DNA of 30,972 nt. It comes from a virus. Location: positions 1 through 30,972 of IMG/VR virus record IMGVR_UViG_3300020435_000022. The stretch is one strand, 5' to 3'. Below are positions 1,871 through 30,514 of the stretch, piece after piece. The notes beneath the pieces were generated by a model. That model saw nothing but the letters and a program-made list of their open reading frames with translations. It ran no database searches and was not told the DNA's origin. The position numbers were made by a program, and so were the translations under genes. The stretch's first letter is position 1. Each line of letters begins with the position of its first letter.

Positions 1871-3274
1871 ATGTCTAGAAAAAAAGAAAGAGAATTATCA
1901 AGATTATTAGACCTTACCAGGCATAAGCCAGGTGGTTCTAAGAAAAAGCAAGGTCAGGTAGCTGCTGCATTTGTTCAGGAGGATCTGTTGCCACAAACTA
2001 AAATAGTAGTAAAGGAGAAAGCACCTAATCTCGTCAAACCAAATAAAAGAGTTACTAATAATGACACGAAAACAATTCTAACTCGTGGACCTACTGGAGA
2101 AGGTGGATTTAAGACACGAGAAGAATTTTGGGGTGGGTTTGATACAAGATGGCGACAAAGTAGAGAATTAGTAGCTGCAAGAGATACTCCTGATCCTAAA
2201 ATAAAAACAGAGAAAAAATGGGGTGGAGAATTAATTACAACGCTAGACTTAGATAATCCTCCAATTGACCAAATTAGTGGAAAACCAATAACTGGTCCAT
2301 ATCAAACTGATCACCCTGTTCCTCAATCTATATTAAAAAGAAGAACTACTCATCCAGTTGGAGCAAATAAATGGCCTAAATGGGTACTTGATAAACATGG
2401 TCCAAGCATTACCATGAAACAAGCACGAAATATTAAAAATGAAAGGCGTGTACTTCAAACTACTTCACCTGAAAGTAACCAGCTTAAATCAAATAAGGGG
2501 TTAATGGATTATGACTCAGAGTTTGGTTGGGGTAATAAGGATAACCCATTGAATTATAAGCCGAAAGTACAAGCACAAAGATATCATGATGCTTTAAAGT
2601 ATGCAGCGGAACAGACTGGTAAGCACATGATGACTAGAGAAGAGGGCCAAAAATATATTCAAATGACTGGTAAACAGCCTACAGTTCCAGGTTGGGATAA
2701 TCCTGAGTTCAGTCCTCCTGCATACTTTCCTCCTACAGTTGGCAAAGATGCACCAAAAAAAATTACATCTCGCTCTGCTTCTATTATAACAAAACAAAAA
2801 TTAGTTTCGACTGAGACTAATGTATTACAAGCATCAGATCAAAGTAATACTAAGCCTAAGTCAACTATCCAGCCCAAAACAGAAGCTGCACCTTCAACTG
2901 CAAAATCTCTGGATAATAAGTCTGACTATGAATATTCAGCAAAAAAGCAATGGCGCAGAAAAGTGGGTACTAAAACATGGGAGAAAGTTCCACCAGTTAA
3001 GAAAAAGACAGATACAAAGAAAACGACTACTGGTGAATATGAGTTCTCAAAAAAAGGAGAATGGCGCAGAAAAATAGGAACAAAAAATTGGGAAAAAGTA
3101 CCTAAAAAATCTAATAAAACAACTGGTCAATCTTATTTACAAAAGAAGTTTCCAGGTATTAATGCACCTAAACTTGTAAAAAATGATAAAGGAGTCCTAG
3201 TTACTGAACGAGTTAAAACGACAGAAGAGAATCGTAAAAAGAAAATAAAAATTGATGAAGAAGATATATGGTGA
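1871..3274 (+). CDS. Putative HNH endonuclease-like protein upstream of terminase
   Basis: 467 residues, very basic. Residues 146-209 read like a beta-beta-alpha-metal (HNH) core: TDHPVPQSIL at 146-155 (D147, H148), then N190 in NERRVL, then SNQLKSNK at 202-209. This DH-x-VPQS / N-x-x-VL / N-x-x-K spacing matches the HNH pattern. The usual zinc-binding CxxC pairs are absent. HNH proteins beside the terminase are common in tailed phages, and in some they are needed for cutting at packaging. The rest of the protein is Lys-rich and low in complexity, with a duplicated 24-residue unit near the C-terminus (listed separately). It starts 1 bp after the upstream stop and ends 3 bp before the terL start. 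The nuclease call rests on motif reading alone. It could instead be an inactive structural protein. Confidence 0.6.
   Translation: MSRKKERELSRLLDLTRHKPGGSKKKQGQVAAAFVQEDLLPQTKIVVKEKAPNLVKPNKRVTNNDTKTILTRGPTGEGGFKTREEFWGGFDTRWRQSRELVAARDTPDPKIKTEKKWGGELITTLDLDNPPIDQISGKPITGPYQTDHPVPQSILKRRTTHPVGANKWPKWVLDKHGPSITMKQARNIKNERRVLQTTSPESNQLKSNKGLMDYDSEFGWGNKDNPLNYKPKVQAQRYHDALKYAAEQTGKHMMTREEGQKYIQMTGKQPTVPGWDNPEFSPPAYFPPTVGKDAPKKITSRSASIITKQKLVSTETNVLQASDQSNTKPKSTIQPKTEAAPSTAKSLDNKSDYEYSAKKQWRRKVGTKTWEKVPPVKKKTDTKKTTTGEYEFSKKGEWRRKIGTKNWEKVPKKSNKTTGQSYLQKKFPGINAPKLVKNDKGVLVTERVKTTEENRKKKIKIDEEDIW
2921..3103 (+). repeat. Diverged tandem duplication coding a 24-residue unit
   Basis: Residues 351-374 and 388-411 of the HNH-like protein are two copies of one unit. 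Both follow the plan YE[YF]S-K-x-WRRK-[VI]-GTK-x-WEKVP (for example WRRKVGTKTWEKVP and WRRKIGTKNWEKVP). A short Lys/Thr-rich linker separates them. At DNA level the copies match best around atggcgcagaaaa. The aromatic and basic make-up suggests a small nucleic-acid or protein-binding module, but no family was recognised. Confidence 0.85.
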
Positions 3275-3277
3275 GAG

Positions 3278-4732
3278 TTGGATGTGAGTAACGCAGAACG
3301 TGCTATATCAATTGCAGAAGCAATAGTAGAGGCAGAAGAAACTAATAAACTTCTTCAGTATGAGCCTTATGAATATCAAAAAAGATTTCATAATGCAAAA
3401 GACAATACTGGAAAGTTAGCTCGACAACGCCTTTTAATGGCAGCTAATAAGACAGGGAAAACATATTGCGGAGCCGTTGAACTTGCAATACATTTGACAG
3501 GGATCTATCCAGACTGGTGGACAGGAGCTAGATTTAATAGACCAGTTACAGTATGGGCTGCTGGCAACACTACAGGTAATACAAGAGATATAGTGCAAGC
3601 AGAGTTATTAGGAGAACCAGGTGATCCTGAAGAATATGGTAAGGGTGCAATACCTAGAGAACTTATTGTAGGTACACCTTTAAGATTACCAGGTATCCCA
3701 AATGCTGTGCAAAGCCTAGTTGTTAAACATAAATCTGGAAAGAACTCAAAATTAATGTTTAAATCTTATGAGCAGGGCAAACAGCAATGGATGGGTAAAG
3801 CAGTAGATGTTGTCTGGTTGGATGAGGAACCTCCACAGGATATATACTCTCAAGCACTTCGGGCATCTTTGAAGTCTGGTGGACTTGTGTATATGACTTT
3901 TACTCCAGAAACAGGGATGACTCCAGTAGTTACTCAGTTTATGACAAAGCTAGGTAGCTCACAGGCATTGTTCTCTGCGACATGGGATGACGCACCTCAT
4001 CTGAATGAGGATATCAAGGAAGAGATACTTCGAGCGTTGCCTCCACATGAACGTGAAATGCGTTCTAAGGGTGTCCCTGTTTTTGGTTCTGGATTAGTAT
4101 TTCCTAATATGGAAGATGAGATCCGATGTGAGCCATTTGCTATACCAGAGTATTGGCCTCGTATCTGTGGTATAGATTTCGGTTGGGATCACCCTACTGC
4201 TGCCGTGTGGCTTGCATGGGATCGTGATACTGATGTGGTATATGTTTATGATTGTTATCGTCAATCTTCTGCCACACCAGTTATACATGCTGCTGCAATT
4301 AAAGAAAGGGGTGCATGGGTTCCTGTAGTATGGCCTCATGATGGTTCACAGCATGATAAAGGATCAGGTCAGTCTCTTGCAGATATATATAGAAAGCAGG
4401 GAATTAAGATGTTAGGAACACATTTTAAGAATCCTGGTGGTGATATTGCAATTGAACCTGGTATTATGGAAATTCTTCAAAGAATGGAAACTGGAAGATT
4501 TAAAGTATTTAATTACTTGAATGACTGGTATGAAGAAGTCCGAATGTATCATCGTAAAGATGGTAAAATTGTCGCAAACATGGATGACTTAATGAGTGCA
4601 ACCAGATATGCAACACAATCATTACAATTTGCTTCTTTAAACAAGGAGAGTAAAAAACGAACTAGGAAAGCTATAGGATCTGGACCTGGTGAATGGAACT
4701 ACTTCCCAATTGAAAAACATGTTTATGCATAG
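3278..4732 (+). CDS. terL: Terminase large subunit (packaging ATPase-nuclease)
   Basis: 484 residues. It should power DNA translocation into the prohead through the portal and cut the concatemer. The N-terminal ATPase has a Walker A AANKTGKT at 55-62, a Walker B VDVVWLDEEP at 176-185 with D182 and E183, and a motif III-like TFTPETG near 207-213. The C-terminal RNase H-like nuclease shows GIDFGWDHPTA (D300), an acidic stretch WPHDGSQHD (D355/D360) and NMDDLMSATRYA (D436/D437), the usual three acidic positions. T7 gp19 is 586 residues, so this one is compact. The start used is TTG at 3278, 3 bp after the upstream stop. GTG at 3284 is an alternative that removes two residues. No strong Shine-Dalgarno is visible, so coupling to the upstream gene is likely. 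No small terminase subunit was recognised in the window. Confidence 0.95.
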   Translation: MDVSNAERAISIAEAIVEAEETNKLLQYEPYEYQKRFHNAKDNTGKLARQRLLMAANKTGKTYCGAVELAIHLTGIYPDWWTGARFNRPVTVWAAGNTTGNTRDIVQAELLGEPGDPEEYGKGAIPRELIVGTPLRLPGIPNAVQSLVVKHKSGKNSKLMFKSYEQGKQQWMGKAVDVVWLDEEPPQDIYSQALRASLKSGGLVYMTFTPETGMTPVVTQFMTKLGSSQALFSATWDDAPHLNEDIKEEILRALPPHEREMRSKGVPVFGSGLVFPNMEDEIRCEPFAIPEYWPRICGIDFGWDHPTAAVWLAWDRDTDVVYVYDCYRQSSATPVIHAAAIKERGAWVPVVWPHDGSQHDKGSGQSLADIYRKQGIKMLGTHFKNPGGDIAIEPGIMEILQRMETGRFKVFNYLNDWYEEVRMYHRKDGKIVANMDDLMSATRYATQSLQFASLNKESKKRTRKAIGSGPGEWNYFPIEKHVYA

Positions 4733-23336: not shown

Positions 23337-25705
23337 TGCTTACTTCTACAACAAATATAGTTGAAGTAACAGGTAGTTCTGCTACAGACTATACTTTTAA
23401 TTTACCTATTCATAAACCTACTGATCTTGTTGTATATGTATCTGCTGTTGTAGTACCATCAACTGGAGGTTCAAATCCACATACTGTAACTGTTGCAGCA
23501 AATAAACAATCTGCTACTATTGCATTTAATGATGCACCAGGTGCAGTTCCGCTAAAATTTGTAAGAACAGTAGCATATATACAAGAAACTGATCTCGCCA
23601 ATAATTCCCTCTTTGATGCGGAGTCATTAGAAACTTCCTTAGACAATATAGTAATGCAGACTCAGCAAGCTAGTAAGTTACAAACAGCTGGCTTTGGTTT
23701 TGATCCAGGTATTGCTGAAGGTGATTTTGATAGTGATGCTGAAACTGCTTCTACATTAAATAAGACAAAAACACAACGAGCAAGTAAAGCATTAGCATTT
23801 GATGCAGATGGTGATATTACTGTATCTGCAGAAAATATTGATGCTCAAATTGCTGCTACTGGTGCGTCAGCTGATGATGCTGAAGATGCAAAAGATGCTG
23901 CGGAAGCAGCACAGGCATTAGCAGAAGCTGCATTAGCTAGTTTTACTGGTATATATCATGGGGCGCAGACTGCAACACCTAGTTCTGGTGTAACAGATGG
24001 TGATTTATGGTTTGATACAAATACTGGTATCAATGTAATGAAGGTTTATAATGCTACTGGAACTGCATGGGAACAACTTACACCTTCTTCAAGTAATCAA
24101 ACTGCAATTAATGCTGTAAATGCTGATGAAGTTGATATTGGTGTTGTTGCTGGTCTTAATACTGAAATTGGGTTATTAAGTGTTTTAAATACAGAAATAG
24201 GGTTGATCGGTACGGCTGGAATGGCACACGCAAGTACTGGAGACATTAAATTAGTTGCTGATATAGCTGCTAATGTAACTAAAGTAGCAGATATTGATTC
24301 TGATGTAACTGCTGTTGCTAGTCTTGGAACTAATGGAGTTGATGTAACTACGGTTTCAAATATTGGGACTGATGGGGCAGATGTTACTACTGTTGCAGGA
24401 AAGGCTACAGAGATTGGTAGGATTGGTACAGGTGCTATGGCAGCAAGTATAGCCTTAATTGGTACAGATGCTTATGCTAATGCATCTACAGGAGATATAA
24501 AACTGGTTGCAGATAATGCCGCAAATGTTACAAAAGTTGCTGATGTAGATACTGAAGTAGGTTTGCTAGGAGCTTTAGATACAGAAATTGGTCTATTGGG
24601 TACTTCAGCAATGGCACATGCATCTACAGGACATATTAAAAAAGTAGGAGATGCAGCAACAGAAGTAGCCAATTTAGGTACGGCTACTGTTGTAGGTTAC
24701 ATAACTGCTCTTAATGGTACTAATGTAATTACGCATATGGCAAATCTAAATGCCACTAATGTAATTACACATATTGGAAACTTAAATGCATCTGGTGTAC
24801 TTACTAATATAGCGAATTTAAACGCAAGTGGTGTCATTTCTAATATTGCTGCTCTTAATGCTAGTGGAGTAATTGCTGATATTGCTGATGTAGCAGATGT
24901 AGATGCAGAAATTACATTACTCGGTACAAGCGCAATGGCTACAGCATCAACTGGTCATTTAGCATTACTTGGAACTTCAGCTATGGCTCATGCATCAACT
25001 GGTTATTTAAAATTAGTTGGTGATATAGACGATAAAGTAACAATAGTTGCAAATAATATTAGTGATGTTGATAACTTTGCAGATTTATATCAGATACATG
25101 ATTTTGCATCTACTCCTACAACTGATGGTGGAGGAAATGCAATTGCAGAAGGAGATATGGCATATGATTCTACTGCAAATGTGCTTAAAATATGGAATGG
25201 CTCTGCTTTTGCTACTGTTTCTACTGTAACACTTCTAAGTACTGATACTACACCTATACTTGGTGGGAATTTAGATGTTAAAGATAAACTTATTACAACA
25301 ACAACTACAAATGGACATGTTGCATTTGATAAAGGAATTACTGAAAAGATTGGTACTTCCACAGTATCAGGAACTACAGTAACAGTAGATTTATCAACTG
25401 GTAACTTCTTTGCTATGGATTTGGAGGGACTGTCTGGTAATGTAGTTACATTTACAATTTCAAATCCTGATGCTACAGCAAATCAAGTATCCAACTTTAT
25501 TGTAAAAATTACTCAAGGTACTACTACAAGTACAAGAAACTTTACTTGGGCTACAGTAGTAAGTAATGGAACAAATATTGATTGGGCTGGTGGTGCTGGA
25601 CCAGATATAACAACTGGTAGTGATAAGATAGATATCCTAAGTTTTACTTCATATGATAATGGAACGACCTGGTATGGAGCAATTGTTGGACAAGAATTCA
25701 GTTAA
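23336..25705 (+). CDS. Tail fibre protein with T7 gp17-like N-terminus
   Basis: 789 residues. The first ~115 residues match the T7 tail fibre N-terminal (virion-attachment) domain: TDYTFNLPIHKPTDLVVYVS, then RTVAYIQETDLANNSLFDAE and LETSLDNIVMQTQQASKL. An Ala/Asp/Glu helix follows (176-202), then a WFDTNTGINVMKVYNATGTAW module (225-245). The shaft is built of degenerate repeats: five copies of AMAHASTG-type units (from 295, 380, 424, 535 and 549) and five 12-residue LNASGV units (459-518). A second MAYDSTANVLKIWNGSAF module (608-625) precedes a beta-rich C-terminal tip (675-789, ending DILSFTSYDNGTTWYGAIVG). Such fibres bind the host surface. The stop overlaps the halogenase start. Confidence 0.9.
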   Translation: MLTSTTNIVEVTGSSATDYTFNLPIHKPTDLVVYVSAVVVPSTGGSNPHTVTVAANKQSATIAFNDAPGAVPLKFVRTVAYIQETDLANNSLFDAESLETSLDNIVMQTQQASKLQTAGFGFDPGIAEGDFDSDAETASTLNKTKTQRASKALAFDADGDITVSAENIDAQIAATGASADDAEDAKDAAEAAQALAEAALASFTGIYHGAQTATPSSGVTDGDLWFDTNTGINVMKVYNATGTAWEQLTPSSSNQTAINAVNADEVDIGVVAGLNTEIGLLSVLNTEIGLIGTAGMAHASTGDIKLVADIAANVTKVADIDSDVTAVASLGTNGVDVTTVSNIGTDGADVTTVAGKATEIGRIGTGAMAASIALIGTDAYANASTGDIKLVADNAANVTKVADVDTEVGLLGALDTEIGLLGTSAMAHASTGHIKKVGDAATEVANLGTATVVGYITALNGTNVITHMANLNATNVITHIGNLNASGVLTNIANLNASGVISNIAALNASGVIADIADVADVDAEITLLGTSAMATASTGHLALLGTSAMAHASTGYLKLVGDIDDKVTIVANNISDVDNFADLYQIHDFASTPTTDGGGNAIAEGDMAYDSTANVLKIWNGSAFATVSTVTLLSTDTTPILGGNLDVKDKLITTTTTNGHVAFDKGITEKIGTSTVSGTTVTVDLSTGNFFAMDLEGLSGNVVTFTISNPDATANQVSNFIVKITQGTTTSTRNFTWATVVSNGTNIDWAGGAGPDITTGSDKIDILSFTSYDNGTTWYGAIVGQEFS
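24710..24889 (+). repeat. Five tandem 36-bp units in the fibre shaft
   Basis: Five in-frame units encode 12 residues each (459-518). The first reads LNGTNVITHMAN, and the third and fourth LNASGVLTNIAN and LNASGVISNIAA. The consensus is LNAS-G-V-I-x-x-I-A-x. At DNA level the units keep the cores cttaatgcta/cttaaatgcat and atattgc but have diverged in third positions. The regular alternation of hydrophobic residues fits a beta-helical or triple-stranded fibre shaft whose length can change by unit gain or loss. Confidence 0.85.
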
Positions 25706-26859
25706 TGAAAATCACAATAGTAGGTGCAGGAAATGCTGGAGTAATTACCGCATTACATTATGCATATTATACTAGGGATTTTGGGAACTATGAAATAGAA
25801 TTAGTATATGACCCTAATATCTCTGTAGTACCAGTTGGACAAGGGACTTTAGTAGATGTACCAAATTTATTATGGGTTGCTTTATGTACTGATTGGTACA
25901 CAAATAAGATAAAAGCTACACCTAAATTTGGTATTCTATATGAAGATTGGGGTAAAAAGAACAAAAAGTTTTTTCATGAATTTGCATTTCCAAATACAGC
26001 AATACAATTTGATCCTGAAACCTTACATGAATATATATTAAATTCAGGACTATTCAAGGTAAGACATGAAAATATTGATGACCTTGATAAAATTGATGCT
26101 AATGCAATATTTGATTGTAGAGGAAATCAAGATATTGAGGATTCTAACTATGATAATGTTATAAATCCTTTAAATGCATGTTTATTAGCAACGAGTAAGG
26201 GGAAAGACCTCACTCAGTTTTGGACTAGAGCAGTAGCTACTCCTGATGGATGGACATTTGTAATACCAAATTCTACTGATACTACATCGTATGGATACAT
26301 ATTTAACTCAGATTATACCACTCAAGATGATGCAGAGTCTAATTTCAATGATATGTTTGGAAAAGATTTTCCAGATGGAATAGATTCAAAAAAGCTAGAT
26401 TTTAAATCATATGTTGCTAAAGAACCAATAACAAAAAAAGATGGTAAAGTAATAATATTAAATGGAAATAGATTAGCTTTTATCGAACCATTAGAAGCAA
26501 CAGCTATGTCACTTTATTTGAATCAAGCAAGAAATACGTATGATTATCTTGTAAATAAAGAAGCAGATATTAATTATTTAAATCTGAAGATTAAACAAAC
26601 AATCAGAGAACAAGCTACATTTATATTATGGCATTATCTTAAAGGTTCTACATATGATACTCCATTTTGGGAATATGCTATGAAATTAGCAGAATTCGGT
26701 ATTGACGAGTCAGATACAAGATTTTATAATGTTATTAATACAGTTAAGAATACAGATGAGCTTAATATCAGAGATCATAGTAAATTTATAGAACAAGCAG
26801 CATATGGAACATGGCCTCATTGGTCATTTAAAAACTGGTATGAGAATGTAATATGTTAG
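25705..26859 (+). CDS. Flavin-dependent (tryptophan-type) halogenase-like protein
   Basis: 384 residues. These enzymes use FADH2, O2 and halide to make HOX, which a lysine passes to an aromatic substrate. An N-terminal Rossmann motif reads VGAGNAG (6-12). VGQGTLVDVPN (44-54) stands for the family's GEATIP segment. K74 in ATPKFGILYEDW aligns with the catalytic lysine (K79 of PrnA). GWTFVIP (182-188) is the WxWxIP motif with the second Trp replaced by Phe, and IEPLEATA (260-267) aligns with the EPLE-[SA]-TG halide/Glu motif, with Ala for Gly. It is shorter than bacterial tryptophan halogenases (about 500-530), mainly at the C-terminus. VirX1 of a cyanophage is a known viral member. The gene overlaps the fibre stop and the adhesin start. 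No flavin reductase is seen nearby. The substrate is unknown. Confidence 0.88.
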   Translation: MKITIVGAGNAGVITALHYAYYTRDFGNYEIELVYDPNISVVPVGQGTLVDVPNLLWVALCTDWYTNKIKATPKFGILYEDWGKKNKKFFHEFAFPNTAIQFDPETLHEYILNSGLFKVRHENIDDLDKIDANAIFDCRGNQDIEDSNYDNVINPLNACLLATSKGKDLTQFWTRAVATPDGWTFVIPNSTDTTSYGYIFNSDYTTQDDAESNFNDMFGKDFPDGIDSKKLDFKSYVAKEPITKKDGKVIILNGNRLAFIEPLEATAMSLYLNQARNTYDYLVNKEADINYLNLKIKQTIREQATFILWHYLKGSTYDTPFWEYAMKLAEFGIDESDTRFYNVINTVKNTDELNIRDHSKFIEQAAYGTWPHWSFKNWYENVIC

Positions 26860-28139
26860 TACGAAATCTTAGAGGATTAAGTTCAGGAGGTCAAGAACTT
26901 GAATTCACTTATACAGCTGATGAACAACATGCTAACTTACAGACTAAAGCTGTTGGATTAGGTTGGGATGTTTCTAAACCAGGAACAGTTACTGCATATG
27001 TTGGTAATGGTTCTGCCCATACAGCATTATATACTTCAACTGGAAGTGGTAGTGCTTATGGTCTTTCTTTTGGTTCTGGTTGGGCAGCAGATACAGAAAT
27101 AAACTTAATTGTAAGAAATAATGGACATATTCTAGGAACTGCTGGCACAGGAGGTGCTGGTAATACTTCTGGCGGTTCAGGTGGAGGCGTTGGAAGTGGT
27201 GGTAGTGGCCAAGCTGAATCTTCTGGTTGTGGATCAGCTACCTCTCAATGTGGGGGTTGGTATTCTGATGAACCTGGATGTCCTGGTCAAAGTGGTAGCT
27301 CAGGGTCTGGTGGTGGTACTGGAGGTGGTGGTAATGCAGGGACTGCTGGTTCTAATGCAATGAATATGAATTTTACTGGTGGAGTTGTTACTATCACCGT
27401 TGATTCTGGAGGTGAAATCTCTGGAGGAGGTGGTGGCGGTGCTGGCGGTGGTTCAGGTGGTGGTGCTGGCGGTGGCGGAGGCGGTGGCAGCGGAGGAGAA
27501 TCTGGTAGAAGAAGCTGCAATACAACATATTATGGATCATGTCAATTACTATGTTGGGCTATTATGGGTAATGAAGGAGGTAATGGTGGTGCTGGAGGTA
27601 CTGGTGGTGTTGGTGGCAACGGAGGTGCAGGAGGTAAGGGTGCTGGTTGGACTAATGGTTGTACTACCAATTTTGCCAGTTGTTATTCTAGTTCAGCAAA
27701 TAGTGGATCAAGTGGATCATCTGGTTCAGGGGGTGCAAGTGGATCATCTGGTGCAGGAGGAGATACAGGCGGAAGCAATCCGCATAGCTGTTGTGATACT
27801 CCTTGCACTCCTACAGGAGGAACAGGAGGTTCAGGGGGAACAGGTGGAACAGGAGGTTCTGGAGGTGCTGGTGGTAATGGAGGAGCATTATCAGTAGGAG
27901 GTTCAGGATCAAGTGCAGGATCATCAGGGCCAAGTGGAAATAGTGGTAGTACTGGATCTACAGGTGGTACTCAATGTGGGGGTACTGGAGGAAGTGGTGG
28001 ATCAGGAGGAGGAGCAGGAGGAGGAGGTTCAGGAGGAGGTTCAGGAGGAACATCTTCAGCAAGTAACTCAATAGTTAATGGTTCTCATGCCTCTGTAACA
28101 TTAGTAAATAATGGTTCTATTAATGGAGCAATAACATAA
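26853..28139 (+). CDS. Glycine-rich putative receptor-binding adhesin
   Basis: 428 residues. About 95 N-terminal residues are beta-rich and carry GLGWDVSKPGTVTAYVGNGS, ending in INLIVRNNGHILGTAGTGG. A very Gly/Ser-rich body follows (about 95-400) with long GG-x repeats, and the C-terminus is SVTLVNNGSINGAIT. The pattern 'I-x-V-x-N-x-G-x-I-x-G' before Gly-rich runs is typical of T-even gp38-type adhesins, whose glycine strands pack as polyglycine-II helices at the fibre tip. Cys-rich, aromatic loops interrupt the glycine (GCGSATSQCGGWYSDEPGC; CNTTYYGSCQLLCW; SCCDTPC) and are good receptor-contact candidates. The start ATG at 26853 overlaps the halogenase stop by 7 nt. A role at the tip of the fibre is inferred. 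Confidence 0.8.
   Translation: MLVRNLRGLSSGGQELEFTYTADEQHANLQTKAVGLGWDVSKPGTVTAYVGNGSAHTALYTSTGSGSAYGLSFGSGWAADTEINLIVRNNGHILGTAGTGGAGNTSGGSGGGVGSGGSGQAESSGCGSATSQCGGWYSDEPGCPGQSGSSGSGGGTGGGGNAGTAGSNAMNMNFTGGVVTITVDSGGEISGGGGGGAGGGSGGGAGGGGGGGSGGESGRRSCNTTYYGSCQLLCWAIMGNEGGNGGAGGTGGVGGNGGAGGKGAGWTNGCTTNFASCYSSSANSGSSGSSGSGGASGSSGAGGDTGGSNPHSCCDTPCTPTGGTGGSGGTGGTGGSGGAGGNGGALSVGGSGSSAGSSGPSGNSGSTGSTGGTQCGGTGGSGGSGGGAGGGGSGGGSGGTSSASNSIVNGSHASVTLVNNGSINGAIT
27130..28070 (+). repeat. Low-complexity GGN-repeat tract in the adhesin gene
   Basis: The coding strand is a long run of GGT/GGC/GGA and GCN/AGT codons. The 5' part (about 27150-27650) favours GGT and GGC, while the 3' part (about 27790-28070) favours GGA, as in ggaggaggagcaggagg. 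GG doublets are dense enough (for example 27420-27490) for two-layer G-quadruplexes to be possible. Such tracts readily gain or lose units. Confidence 0.8.
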
Positions 28140-28651: not shown

Positions 28652-28966
28652 ATGAAGAAAGTAAACCACTCATTACTTGGTGGAGCAGGGAGTCCGCTTG
28701 AAAACAGGAAACTTCTTAACTTTTGGGCCAGATTCGTCATATCAATTGCCAACGCATTTACGTTCCTGGTTCTACTTTACTTATTGTTCTATGCGGATGT
28801 TAAAGAAACGAGTCGTGATCTGGTTAATATCCTTATGGGAGCATATGTTGCAGTCCTTGCAAAGTCTACCGATTACTGGTTTCGTGAGAAGAAGGATCAT
28901 GAACATGAGGAAGAAATGGAATCAAGTAAGGCAAAATATAAGCTAAAGAAAGGAGAGAATATATGA
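28652..28966 (+). CDS. Small membrane protein, holin candidate
   Basis: 104 residues. A clear hydrophobic helix lies at about residues 25-48 (FVISIANAFTFLVLLYLLFY), and a weaker one at about 56-75 (DLVNILMGAYVAVLAKSTDYWF). A highly charged C-terminal tail follows (EKKDHEHEEEMESSKAKYKL). Two membrane segments plus a charged tail fit a class II holin-like protein, which would open the inner membrane for the endolysin at the end of infection. The position just before spanin and endolysin candidates supports this, but holins share no sequence signature, so it is inference. The ATG lies directly after the previous stop, and its own stop overlaps the next start (ATGA at 28963). Confidence 0.65.
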   Translation: MKKVNHSLLGGAGSPLENRKLLNFWARFVISIANAFTFLVLLYLLFYADVKETSRDLVNILMGAYVAVLAKSTDYWFREKKDHEHEEEMESSKAKYKLKKGENI

Positions 28967-29184
28967 GTTTTGTGCAGAAATTCAAAGATTTCTTTTTTAA
29001 ACCTTCTTCTTCTGATCATGAGAGAATAGAAAGATGGAAAAATGAAGTTGATGAAGCAGATAGATTAAAGGAACTTCATCGTAAAGCCAGGAAACAGGAT
29101 AAGAAAGCATTGACTGTTGAAGATTTTGAACGTGCAAAGCAATCTAAAAAACAAAAGAATAAAACTCTCAGTTCAAACTTCTAA
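28963..29184 (+). CDS. Unrecognised basic protein in the lysis region
   Basis: 73 residues, very rich in Lys, Asp, Glu and Arg, with a Phe-rich N-terminus (FVQKFKDFFFKPSSSD). It continues as a single long charged helix (RIERWKNEVDEADRLKELHR). The ribosome site is good (aaaggagagaatat before ATG). It overlaps the holin-candidate stop by 4 nt and the next gene start by 1 nt (TAATG at 29182-29186). No membrane segment or enzyme motif was seen. It may be a cytoplasmic partner of the lysis proteins, but no function can be given. Confidence 0.75.
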   Translation: MSFVQKFKDFFFKPSSSDHERIERWKNEVDEADRLKELHRKARKQDKKALTVEDFERAKQSKKQKNKTLSSNF

Positions 29185-29438
29185 TGGCTAATGGATCAAT
29201 ACAAGCGGTAACTGAACACACGCTTGTAAAAACTTTTACTCCTCTTGTAGTTGCTGGTTTAATGGGCATTGTTGGATGGTTATTTGCAACAGTCATGGAT
29301 GTAGAGAAACTGGCTAGAGACAACAAATTGCATATAGAGCATCTTCATATGGCAGAAGAGACATTTGGGGAACAAATGGAAGAAGTAGAGAAGACATTAA
29401 CTGACCTTAGAATTAATGTAGGTAGACTTGCTCATTAA
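29184..29438 (+). CDS. Putative inner-membrane spanin (Rz-like)
   Basis: 84 residues. A single hydrophobic helix at about 19-37 (TPLVVAGLMGIVGWLFATVM) is followed by a charged helix with heptad character (KLARDNKLHIEHLHMAEETF, then EQMEEVEKTLTDLRINVGRL). This N-terminal anchor plus periplasmic coiled coil is the i-spanin layout. The next ORF is a tiny lipoprotein whose possible TTG start lies inside the end of this gene, the usual Rz/Rz1 arrangement. A single-span (class III) holin is the alternative, in which case the 28652 gene would need another role. Very short for an i-spanin. Confidence 0.6.
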   Translation: MANGSIQAVTEHTLVKTFTPLVVAGLMGIVGWLFATVMDVEKLARDNKLHIEHLHMAEETFGEQMEEVEKTLTDLRINVGRLAH

Positions 29439-29586
29439 ACTTATGATAATTGCATTTTTATTAATTGGATGTTCAACTAAGCCTGAATCACCAGGAGTTG
29501 GATATTGGGTAGATACATACTTTAGTAATGAATCACAATGGCAATGTATAGAGCCATTTACACCACACAGGAATAAGGAGTGTTAA
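29428..29586 (+). CDS. Tiny lipoprotein, putative outer-membrane spanin (Rz1-like)
   Basis: From ATG at 29443 the frame encodes 47 residues starting MIIAFLLIGC-STKPESPG. LIGC is a good lipobox, so cleavage and lipid attachment at the Cys are expected, leaving a mature peptide of 38 residues. An in-frame TTG at 29428 would give MLIKLMIIAFLLIGC, adding the Lys expected before a signal-peptide core; this longer form (52 residues) is given here. There is an in-frame stop at 29419, so no longer form exists. The mature part is Pro/Trp/Cys-containing (GVGYWVDTYFSNESQWQC). Rz1-type spanins are short lipoproteins encoded at or inside the end of the i-spanin gene, and they fuse the envelope membranes at lysis. 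The next ATG follows directly after the stop. Confidence 0.7.
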   Translation: MLIKLMIIAFLLIGCSTKPESPGVGYWVDTYFSNESQWQCIEPFTPHRNKEC

Positions 29587-30059: not shown

Positions 30060-30073
30060 AACCCATGTGGGTT
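30060..30073. repeat. Perfect short palindrome upstream of the endolysin
   Basis: AACCCA-TG-TGGGTT is a perfect inverted repeat with a 2-nt centre. The right arm sequence tgggtt recurs at 30094-30099. It lies in the 71-bp gap before the endolysin start. A protein-binding site is possible, or an RNA stem that competes with the hairpin just upstream. No known operator was recognised. Confidence 0.4.
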
Positions 30074-30105
30074 GGAAATAGACGACAATTCAATGGGTTA
30101 GTAAT

Positions 30106-30111
30106 AGGAGG
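30106..30111 (+). promoter_or_regulatory. AGGAGG ribosome site fixing the endolysin start
   Basis: AGGAGG lies 7 nt before ATG 30119 and 10 nt before ATG 30122. This identifies the start at 30119 instead of the earlier in-frame ATG at 30065, which has no ribosome site and would add 18 residues outside the peptidase domain. Confidence 0.8.
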
Positions 30112-30118
30112 ATTAGCT

Positions 30119-30514
30119 ATGATGCTAACTAAAAACTTTTCTAGTGCAGAAATGATGTGCAGCTGTGGCTGCGGAGAAGATGCAATGGACCCAGACTTCA
30201 TGTCTATATTGCAGAATATAAGGGAAGATATGAATAGACCTTTAAGGATTAGTAGCGGAGTACGTTGTGCGAAGAGAAATTCTGAGGTTAGTTCAACAGG
30301 AAGTAATGGACCGCATGTTCCTAGAACTAATGGTACAATGGCAAGCGATATTCTGATCGCTGGCGCAGATGCACTCAGGCTTGTGGATGTTGCGAGGAAA
30401 CATGGTATAAGTGGAGTTGGAATCTCTCAGAGAGGTACTCATGCAAAAAGATTCATTCACATTGACACACTCTCTGATGAGAAACATCCTAGACCAACTA
30501 TGTGGTCTTATTAG
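30119..30514 (+). CDS. M15-type zinc peptidase, putative endolysin
   Basis: 131 residues from ATG 30119. It matches the M15 (D-Ala-D-Ala carboxypeptidase-like, peptidase M15_3) domain that occurs alone in small phage endolysins, cutting peptide bonds in peptidoglycan. Features are NFSSAEMMCSCGCGE near the N-terminus (F/S/x-E-x-x-C pattern), LRISSGVRCAKRN (42-54), the zinc ligands H66 in GPHVP and D77 in ASDI, and H114 in FIHID after GVGISQRGTHAKR. The segment between H66 and D77 (VPRTNGTMAS) is a little longer than the usual GxAxD spacing. No signal peptide is seen, so release through a holin is expected. Its 3' end overlaps the convergent minus-strand gene by 17 nt. Confidence 0.9.
   Translation: MMLTKNFSSAEMMCSCGCGEDAMDPDFMSILQNIREDMNRPLRISSGVRCAKRNSEVSSTGSNGPHVPRTNGTMASDILIAGADALRLVDVARKHGISGVGISQRGTHAKRFIHIDTLSDEKHPRPTMWSY

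Follow-up and report, generated by a model that had tools for sequence, protein, structure and literature searches.

The closest described systems to the locus reported here are two-component spanins and a group of small exclusion lipoproteins. A 2018 survey of phage spanins covered 528 two-component spanins; in 507 of these the pair contains one or more periplasmic Cys, in 196 the o-spanin gene was unannotated, and combined periplasmic lengths are 62-300 aa (PMC6139136). The commonest Cys combination is none in the i-spanin and two in the o-spanin, as in PseT.3/PseT.2 of T4, where both o-spanin Cys are essential; an 8-nt overlap is classed as separated architecture, and some families contain overlapped as well as separated pairs (PMC6139136). 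In lambda, the i-spanin Rz and the lipoprotein Rz1 are encoded within the holin-endolysin cassette, with the Pro-rich Rz1 embedded in Rz. The exclusion proteins Llp and Rtp45 are small periplasmic outer membrane (OM) lipoproteins with an intramolecular disulphide that lock the receptor, and Rtp45 is about 6 kDa with a beta hairpin (PMC9586334, PMC12685063).

We analysed a virus record of 30,972 bases, here called the window. Its portal is about 30-31% identical to the portals of Pelagibacter phages, and the nearest cultured relatives of the phage group, judged by portal, include Pelagibacter phages. The subject of this work is a small lipoprotein gene that we call lipA; related contigs and loci carry labels of the form L001. 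As listed below, it is surrounded by lysis genes, and the tail-region ORFs are about 1.3 kb upstream of it.

28652-28966, plus strand: holin candidate with two hydrophobic segments (phrog_4237 holin, E 0.0072)
28963-29184, plus strand: 73-aa basic soluble ORF between the holin candidate and iORF; its C-terminus, KNKTLSSNF, recurs in relatives
29184-29438, plus strand: iORF, 84 aa, i-spanin candidate and core cassette member; one TM segment near the N-terminus, then a coiled coil
29428-29586, plus strand: lipA, small lipoprotein gene, 52 aa from TTG; predicted signal peptide MLIKLMIIAFLLIG, mature part CSTKPESPGVGYWVDTYFSNESQWQCIEPFTPHRNKEC of 38 aa
29587-29880, plus strand: 97-aa soluble ORF downstream of lipA, with relatives in L006 and L036
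29868-30047, plus strand: amp, a conserved 59-aa ORF before the endolysin (phrog_402, function unknown, E 3.8e-11)
30065-30118, plus strand: in-frame leader of the endolysin with twin-arginine motif MWVGNRRQFNGLVIGGLA; ATG at 30065
30119-30514, plus strand: M15 peptidase endolysin, core form (phrog_894 endolysin, 1.1e-22; PF08291, 6.3e-14), with SD AGGAGG at 30107-30112

Between the tail-region genes and this cassette, the window also encodes a tryptophan-halogenase-like protein (25705-26859; PF04820, E 1e-32), and a 428-aa glycine-rich protein with scattered Cys (26853-28139) adjoins the tail region.

Like Rz and Rz1, iORF and lipA are an i-spanin candidate and a lipoprotein gene within a holin-endolysin cassette. 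In contrast to the lambda genes, the two overlap by only 11 nt (29428-29438) and stand apart in relatives, and lipA is not Pro-rich. T4 PseT.3/PseT.2 resembles the pair in its Cys-free i-spanin with one TM segment, in an o-spanin lipoprotein whose two Cys are 11-12 residues apart and in genes that are not nested (PMC6139136). However, in T4 these genes are located away from the lysis cluster and no sequence homology between them and lipA or iORF was found; lipA is also shorter than PseT.2, and a hairpin is predicted for it as opposed to the C-terminal helix predicted for PseT.2. With Llp, Cor and Rtp45, lipA shares the very small size and the Cys pair of an OM lipoprotein, whereas the Llp gene of T5 sits beside the receptor-binding gene and lipA, for which no sequence match to these proteins was found, sits among lysis genes. 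Neither the holin candidate nor iORF had a relative in 50,697 phage records (INPHARED), and no match there counts for lipA. No lipA relative was found in a bacterial genome collection, and a PDB sequence search with lipA returned nothing useful.

A bare lipobox is weak evidence for a gene, because a loose lipobox filter gives a mean of 0.42 matches per random window. A strict filter, which required an uncharged hydrophobic stretch, a lipobox, an n-region of net positive charge and ATG, GTG or TTG 11-29 codons before the Cys, returned lipA as the single match on either strand of the whole window and no match in 40 first-order Markov windows of equal composition. It is conservation that decides the matter. 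The counterpart of lipA in L001, the closest phage contig, and in L025 is 90% identical; pN/pS is 0.24 between the window and L001 and 0.32 for six independent pairs taken together, and stops interrupt the other two frames across lipA. The gene is under purifying selection. That lipA is a chance ORF with a lipobox, a reading for which the rate of loose matches speaks, is extremely improbable given its retention in dozens of contigs, its invariant Cys and Trp, the pooled pN/pS and the stops in the other frames.

Our first impression was that the lipobox is not conserved, as only one of the 23 contigs found with iORF as query, L001, has a lipobox ORF directly after iORF. This was dropped when a lipobox scan combined with a profile located the lipoprotein elsewhere: L007-L010 and L021 have it one gene later, and L011-L020 have it in a longer form that precedes the holin candidate. 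An HMM of lipA finds family members in many contigs, and these preserve the lipobox Cys and the two mature Cys. In a 24-member alignment the lipobox Cys, G25, W27 and Cys40 are invariant and P32, W38 and Cys52 are more than 90% conserved, giving a family motif of an invariant lipobox Cys followed by GxW...WxC...C. An alignment of all lipA types is too divergent for a pattern search. The upstream and window types nevertheless form one family, because in L042 and L043 the insert of the upstream type occurs together with the NKEC end that marks the window type. The ORF is thus confirmed as a real, conserved and selected lipoprotein gene of a previously undescribed family, with a recognisable motif, found in lysis cassettes of uncultured phages. 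A sequence-only reading of the window had called the lipobox and proposed to look for the LIGC site and the gene overlap in related phages; the lipobox is indeed kept and relatives have proper signal peptides, while the overlap is local.

The positions within lipA that bear on its start and its conserved residues are as follows.

29428-29430, plus strand: TTG, start candidate, 14 codons before the lipobox Cys, the same distance as the ATG of L007-L009
29434-29436, plus strand: ATT, alternative start candidate, 12 codons before the Cys
29443-29445, plus strand: ATG of the 47-aa form
29461-29472, plus strand: lipobox L-I-G-C; Cys15 codon TGT at 29470-29472, Cys invariant in the family
29545-29547, plus strand: Cys40 of the mature domain (WQC motif), invariant in the family
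29581-29583, plus strand: C-terminal Cys52 (NKEC-stop), more than 90% conserved
29584-29586, plus strand: stop codon

An AGG at 29420-29422 lies 5 nt upstream of the TTG. Starting at the TTG places a Lys among 14 residues ahead of the Cys, a length identical to that of MKYFIFMFTLILIGC in L007. Initiation at the ATT would give MKLMIIAFLLIGC, in exact alignment with MKILLLIIVLSGC of L010. The ATT aligns with ATG AAA in L010, L031, L032 and L036 and also with ATT or ATC followed by Lys or Arg in L026-L029 and L039-L042; in several relatives ATT or ATC is the sole candidate at the aligned place, and in L039-L041, where the stop lies further upstream, the run AAGGAAGGGG immediately precedes the ATT. 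By these alignments TTG 29428 and ATT 29434 appear to be equally good alternatives. The 47-residue form from ATG 29443, with only nine residues ahead of the Cys and zero positive charge, seems unlikely and is the least likely of the three. Re-derivation reproduced the coordinates and the lengths (52 aa from TTG, 47 aa from ATG) given by the sequence-only reading, which was also right that the TTG supplies a Lys in the signal peptide. It had further placed the start inside the upstream gene as in Rz/Rz1; the 11-nt overlap is there, but it is a junction and lipA is not embedded. The overlap is seen where an intervening gene is absent and does not represent a nested Rz/Rz1 design.

To describe the position of lipA across relatives, we use a search with the holin candidate, which gave 67 loci, 54 of them distinct. 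iORF lies within 400 nt after the holin candidate in 47 of the 54, and lipA is near the lysis genes in 29. Among these 29, lipA is found upstream of the holin candidate (9 loci), between the holin candidate and iORF (3), between iORF and the endolysin (13, of which 7 have the small gene stm intervening and 6 do not), after the endolysin (2), or after a holin candidate with no iORF match (2). It adjoins a portal gene in L038 and L097. In 18 of the 38 cassettes that are complete in our data iORF is present and lipA absent, and lipA occurs without iORF in at least seven loci (L026, L027, L028, L029 and L039-L041). In L026, L027, L029 and L039-L041, a 143-aa protein stands before lipA in place of the holin candidate and iORF; two hydrophobic segments, the first of them N-terminal, are present in this protein, and its C-terminal region looks helical. 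In L022, iORF is split over two frames (3001-3132 and 3098-3271 within 3001-3271), which reflects a frameshift or a sequencing error.

The gene is retained while it moves, since 22 of the 24 members of the window's clade on the tree of holin candidate and iORF have lipA, across all of these cassette places. Its presence changes 6 times on that tree as opposed to 14.8 times when shuffled, where some clustering is expected from sequence kinship. Strictly independent assortment of lipA and iORF is therefore unsupported, as the presence of lipA tracks the tree. Relocation inside the cassette by a gene that is nonetheless retained is unusual, and lipA offers an example of it; it is likewise an example of a very short gene that, with TTG or ATT as its start candidate, is a real, selected part of a cassette. 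The idea that each cassette has exactly one lipoprotein was dropped, because many cassettes that lack lipA have none nearby. Two long contigs of 51 and 41 kb that lack lipA yielded no convincing other lipoprotein, only implausible candidates.

Several properties point to a spanin. lipA has the LIGC lipobox, an n-region Lys from either the TTG or the ATT start and a Cys that is invariant in relatives, as an o-spanin should. Its C-terminus is polar and has no TM segment, so it is not a unimolecular spanin, and a small beta hairpin is predicted for the mature domain (pLDDT 71). iORF, from its sequence and predicted helix, has the one N-terminal TM segment and the periplasmic domain of an i-spanin: a single hydrophobic segment at about 19-38 is followed by a coiled-coil helix of about 46 residues, and the predicted structure is one continuous helix from 3 to 83 (mean pLDDT 81). 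Lys16 before the TM segment and acidic residues after it suggest an N-in/C-out orientation. The iORF profile resembles coiled coils, and its matches in a PDB sequence search are coiled-coil proteins. The combined periplasmic length of the two would be about 46+38=84 aa, within the range of 62-300, and the two conserved Cys in lipA with none in iORF make up the commonest known combination. The best recurring PHROG for iORF is the Rz-like spanin family phrog_739 (5 of 19 members, best E 0.0031), which also matches stm, all at E 0.001-0.1, a range that coiled coils and TM segments can reach by chance; five Rz-like spanin PHROGs recur for lipA, all weakly (best E 0.013). The embedded or overlapped Rz/Rz1 architecture is lacking, the overlap being 11 nt.

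We therefore favor the reading that lipA is the o-spanin of a two-component spanin with iORF as its most likely inner-membrane partner, to which we give a probability of about 0.55. The broader statement, that lipA is an o-spanin partnered by either iORF or stm, is likelier still and we regard it as probable. The spanin reading is plausible, not proven, and a new o-spanin family is the most likely identity of lipA. In this model, translation from the TTG or ATT would yield a signal peptide that is cleaved before Cys15, and the lipidated Cys15 would tether the mature domain of 38 residues to the outer membrane, at its inner leaflet. iORF, with one TM segment in N-in/C-out orientation and a coiled coil of about 46 residues, would be the partner in the inner membrane. 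Holin and endolysin would act first; lipA and iORF would then join across the periplasm in a complex, stabilised by disulphides of Cys40 and Cys52, that fuses or disrupts the outer membrane. The sequence-only reading had lipA completing a spanin pair with the ORF just upstream. What stands of this is a conserved lipoprotein in a cassette of holin candidate, TM protein and M15 peptidase; the pairing itself is less certain, given at least four lipA places in the cassette, often with another one-TM gene intervening, the 18 of 38 complete cassettes with iORF only, the loci that have lipA without iORF, the presence of lipB, a second secreted or lipidated protein, after the endolysin in many relatives, and the marginal Rz-like PHROG matches of both proteins.

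That intervening gene, stm, is a small gene with one TM segment between iORF and lipA in L007-L010 and L021, and where it intervenes it may be the true partner of lipA. An o-spanin paired with stm (or with another cassette protein), leaving iORF to do something else such as aiding the holin, would fit the ATGA-type overlap of stm and lipA in L007-L010, L031, L032 and L036, the better phrog_739 match of stm (E 0.001) and the tendency of iORF to keep beside the holin candidate even in loci missing lipA. However, the window, L001, L035, L042-L044, L087, L088 and L101 have lipA and iORF with no stm match, and most stm members leave about 25-30 residues beyond the TM segment, and we consider this arrangement improbable. 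A different role would make lipA a superinfection-exclusion lipoprotein like T5 Llp, Cor and Rtp45: made late and placed on the periplasmic face of the OM, it would lock the receptor such that progeny and debris do not re-adsorb. A mature part of 38 residues that has two conserved Cys, with a putative disulphide, and is predicted to form a hairpin suits such a protein, as do the absence of lipA from many cassettes and its changes of place, which are expected of an accessory gene; in L014 and its kin, lipA is just upstream of the holin candidate, beside tail-side ORFs. Yet in almost every locus lipA remains close to the lysis genes, and it is retained almost throughout the window's clade (22/24), and no match to a phage exclusion family was found in PHROGs, Pfam, NCBIfam or PDB sequences, a match to EexN (0.046) falling mostly over the signal peptide. 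We regard exclusion as unlikely, though a stronger contender than pairing with stm, and retain the spanin formed with iORF as our preferred reading.

The endolysin ORF extends upstream of ATG 30119, which has its own SD, into the twin-arginine leader. RRx[FLY] is present in the leader of 54 of 55 distinct relatives, and the motif is conserved as protein because 18 different Arg-Arg codon pairs encode it. NCBIfam places the endolysin of the window near MepK/YcbK with an E of 1.2e-5, which falls short of the cut-off of that model. MepK/YcbK is a Tat-exported enzyme in E. coli. The leader suggests either Tat export or an endolysin with two starts; Tat export is a proposal only, because Tat signals have longer hydrophobic stretches than the one here, whose GG(I/L)A part is also where the internal SD falls. 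The proposal of a Tat-dependent endolysin can be tested.

Thirty-four of 54 endolysin leaders contain no ATG, GTG or TTG, and most of these have AAAGGT-ACT-ATT or similar at a fixed distance. Such M15 leaders occur in L005, L012-L015, L026, L029, L039, L042 and others, and lipA likewise starts without ATG, GTG or TTG in L026-L029 and L039-L042; in both genes AAAGGT or AAGGAAGGGG is followed at a fixed position by ATT, ATC or ATA, a hint that lysis genes may use AUU-type initiation. An unusual lysis module that combines a Tat-exported endolysin, low-expression AUU-type starts and a relocating lipA for the OM step or a receptor block is a speculative and rather unlikely extension of these observations.

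In many relatives the endolysin is followed by lipB, a secreted or lipidated protein. We considered lipB as a universal o-spanin and rejected it, as its lipobox is not conserved (there is none in L010) and nothing after the endolysin of the window matches it. After the endolysin, 64 loci (e.g. L014, 4056-4406 / 4070-4312) have two overlapping open frames in the same +2 relation. The lipB frame, secreted or lipidated with a CDC motif, has a pooled pN/pS of 0.35; the overlapping soluble ORF has a pooled pN/pS of 0.76 and may or may not be a gene, and neither member of this pair has a match in the window. Where lipB is missing, an acyl-carrier-protein-like ORF follows the endolysin in L008 (1800-2141) and L032 (4906-5247).
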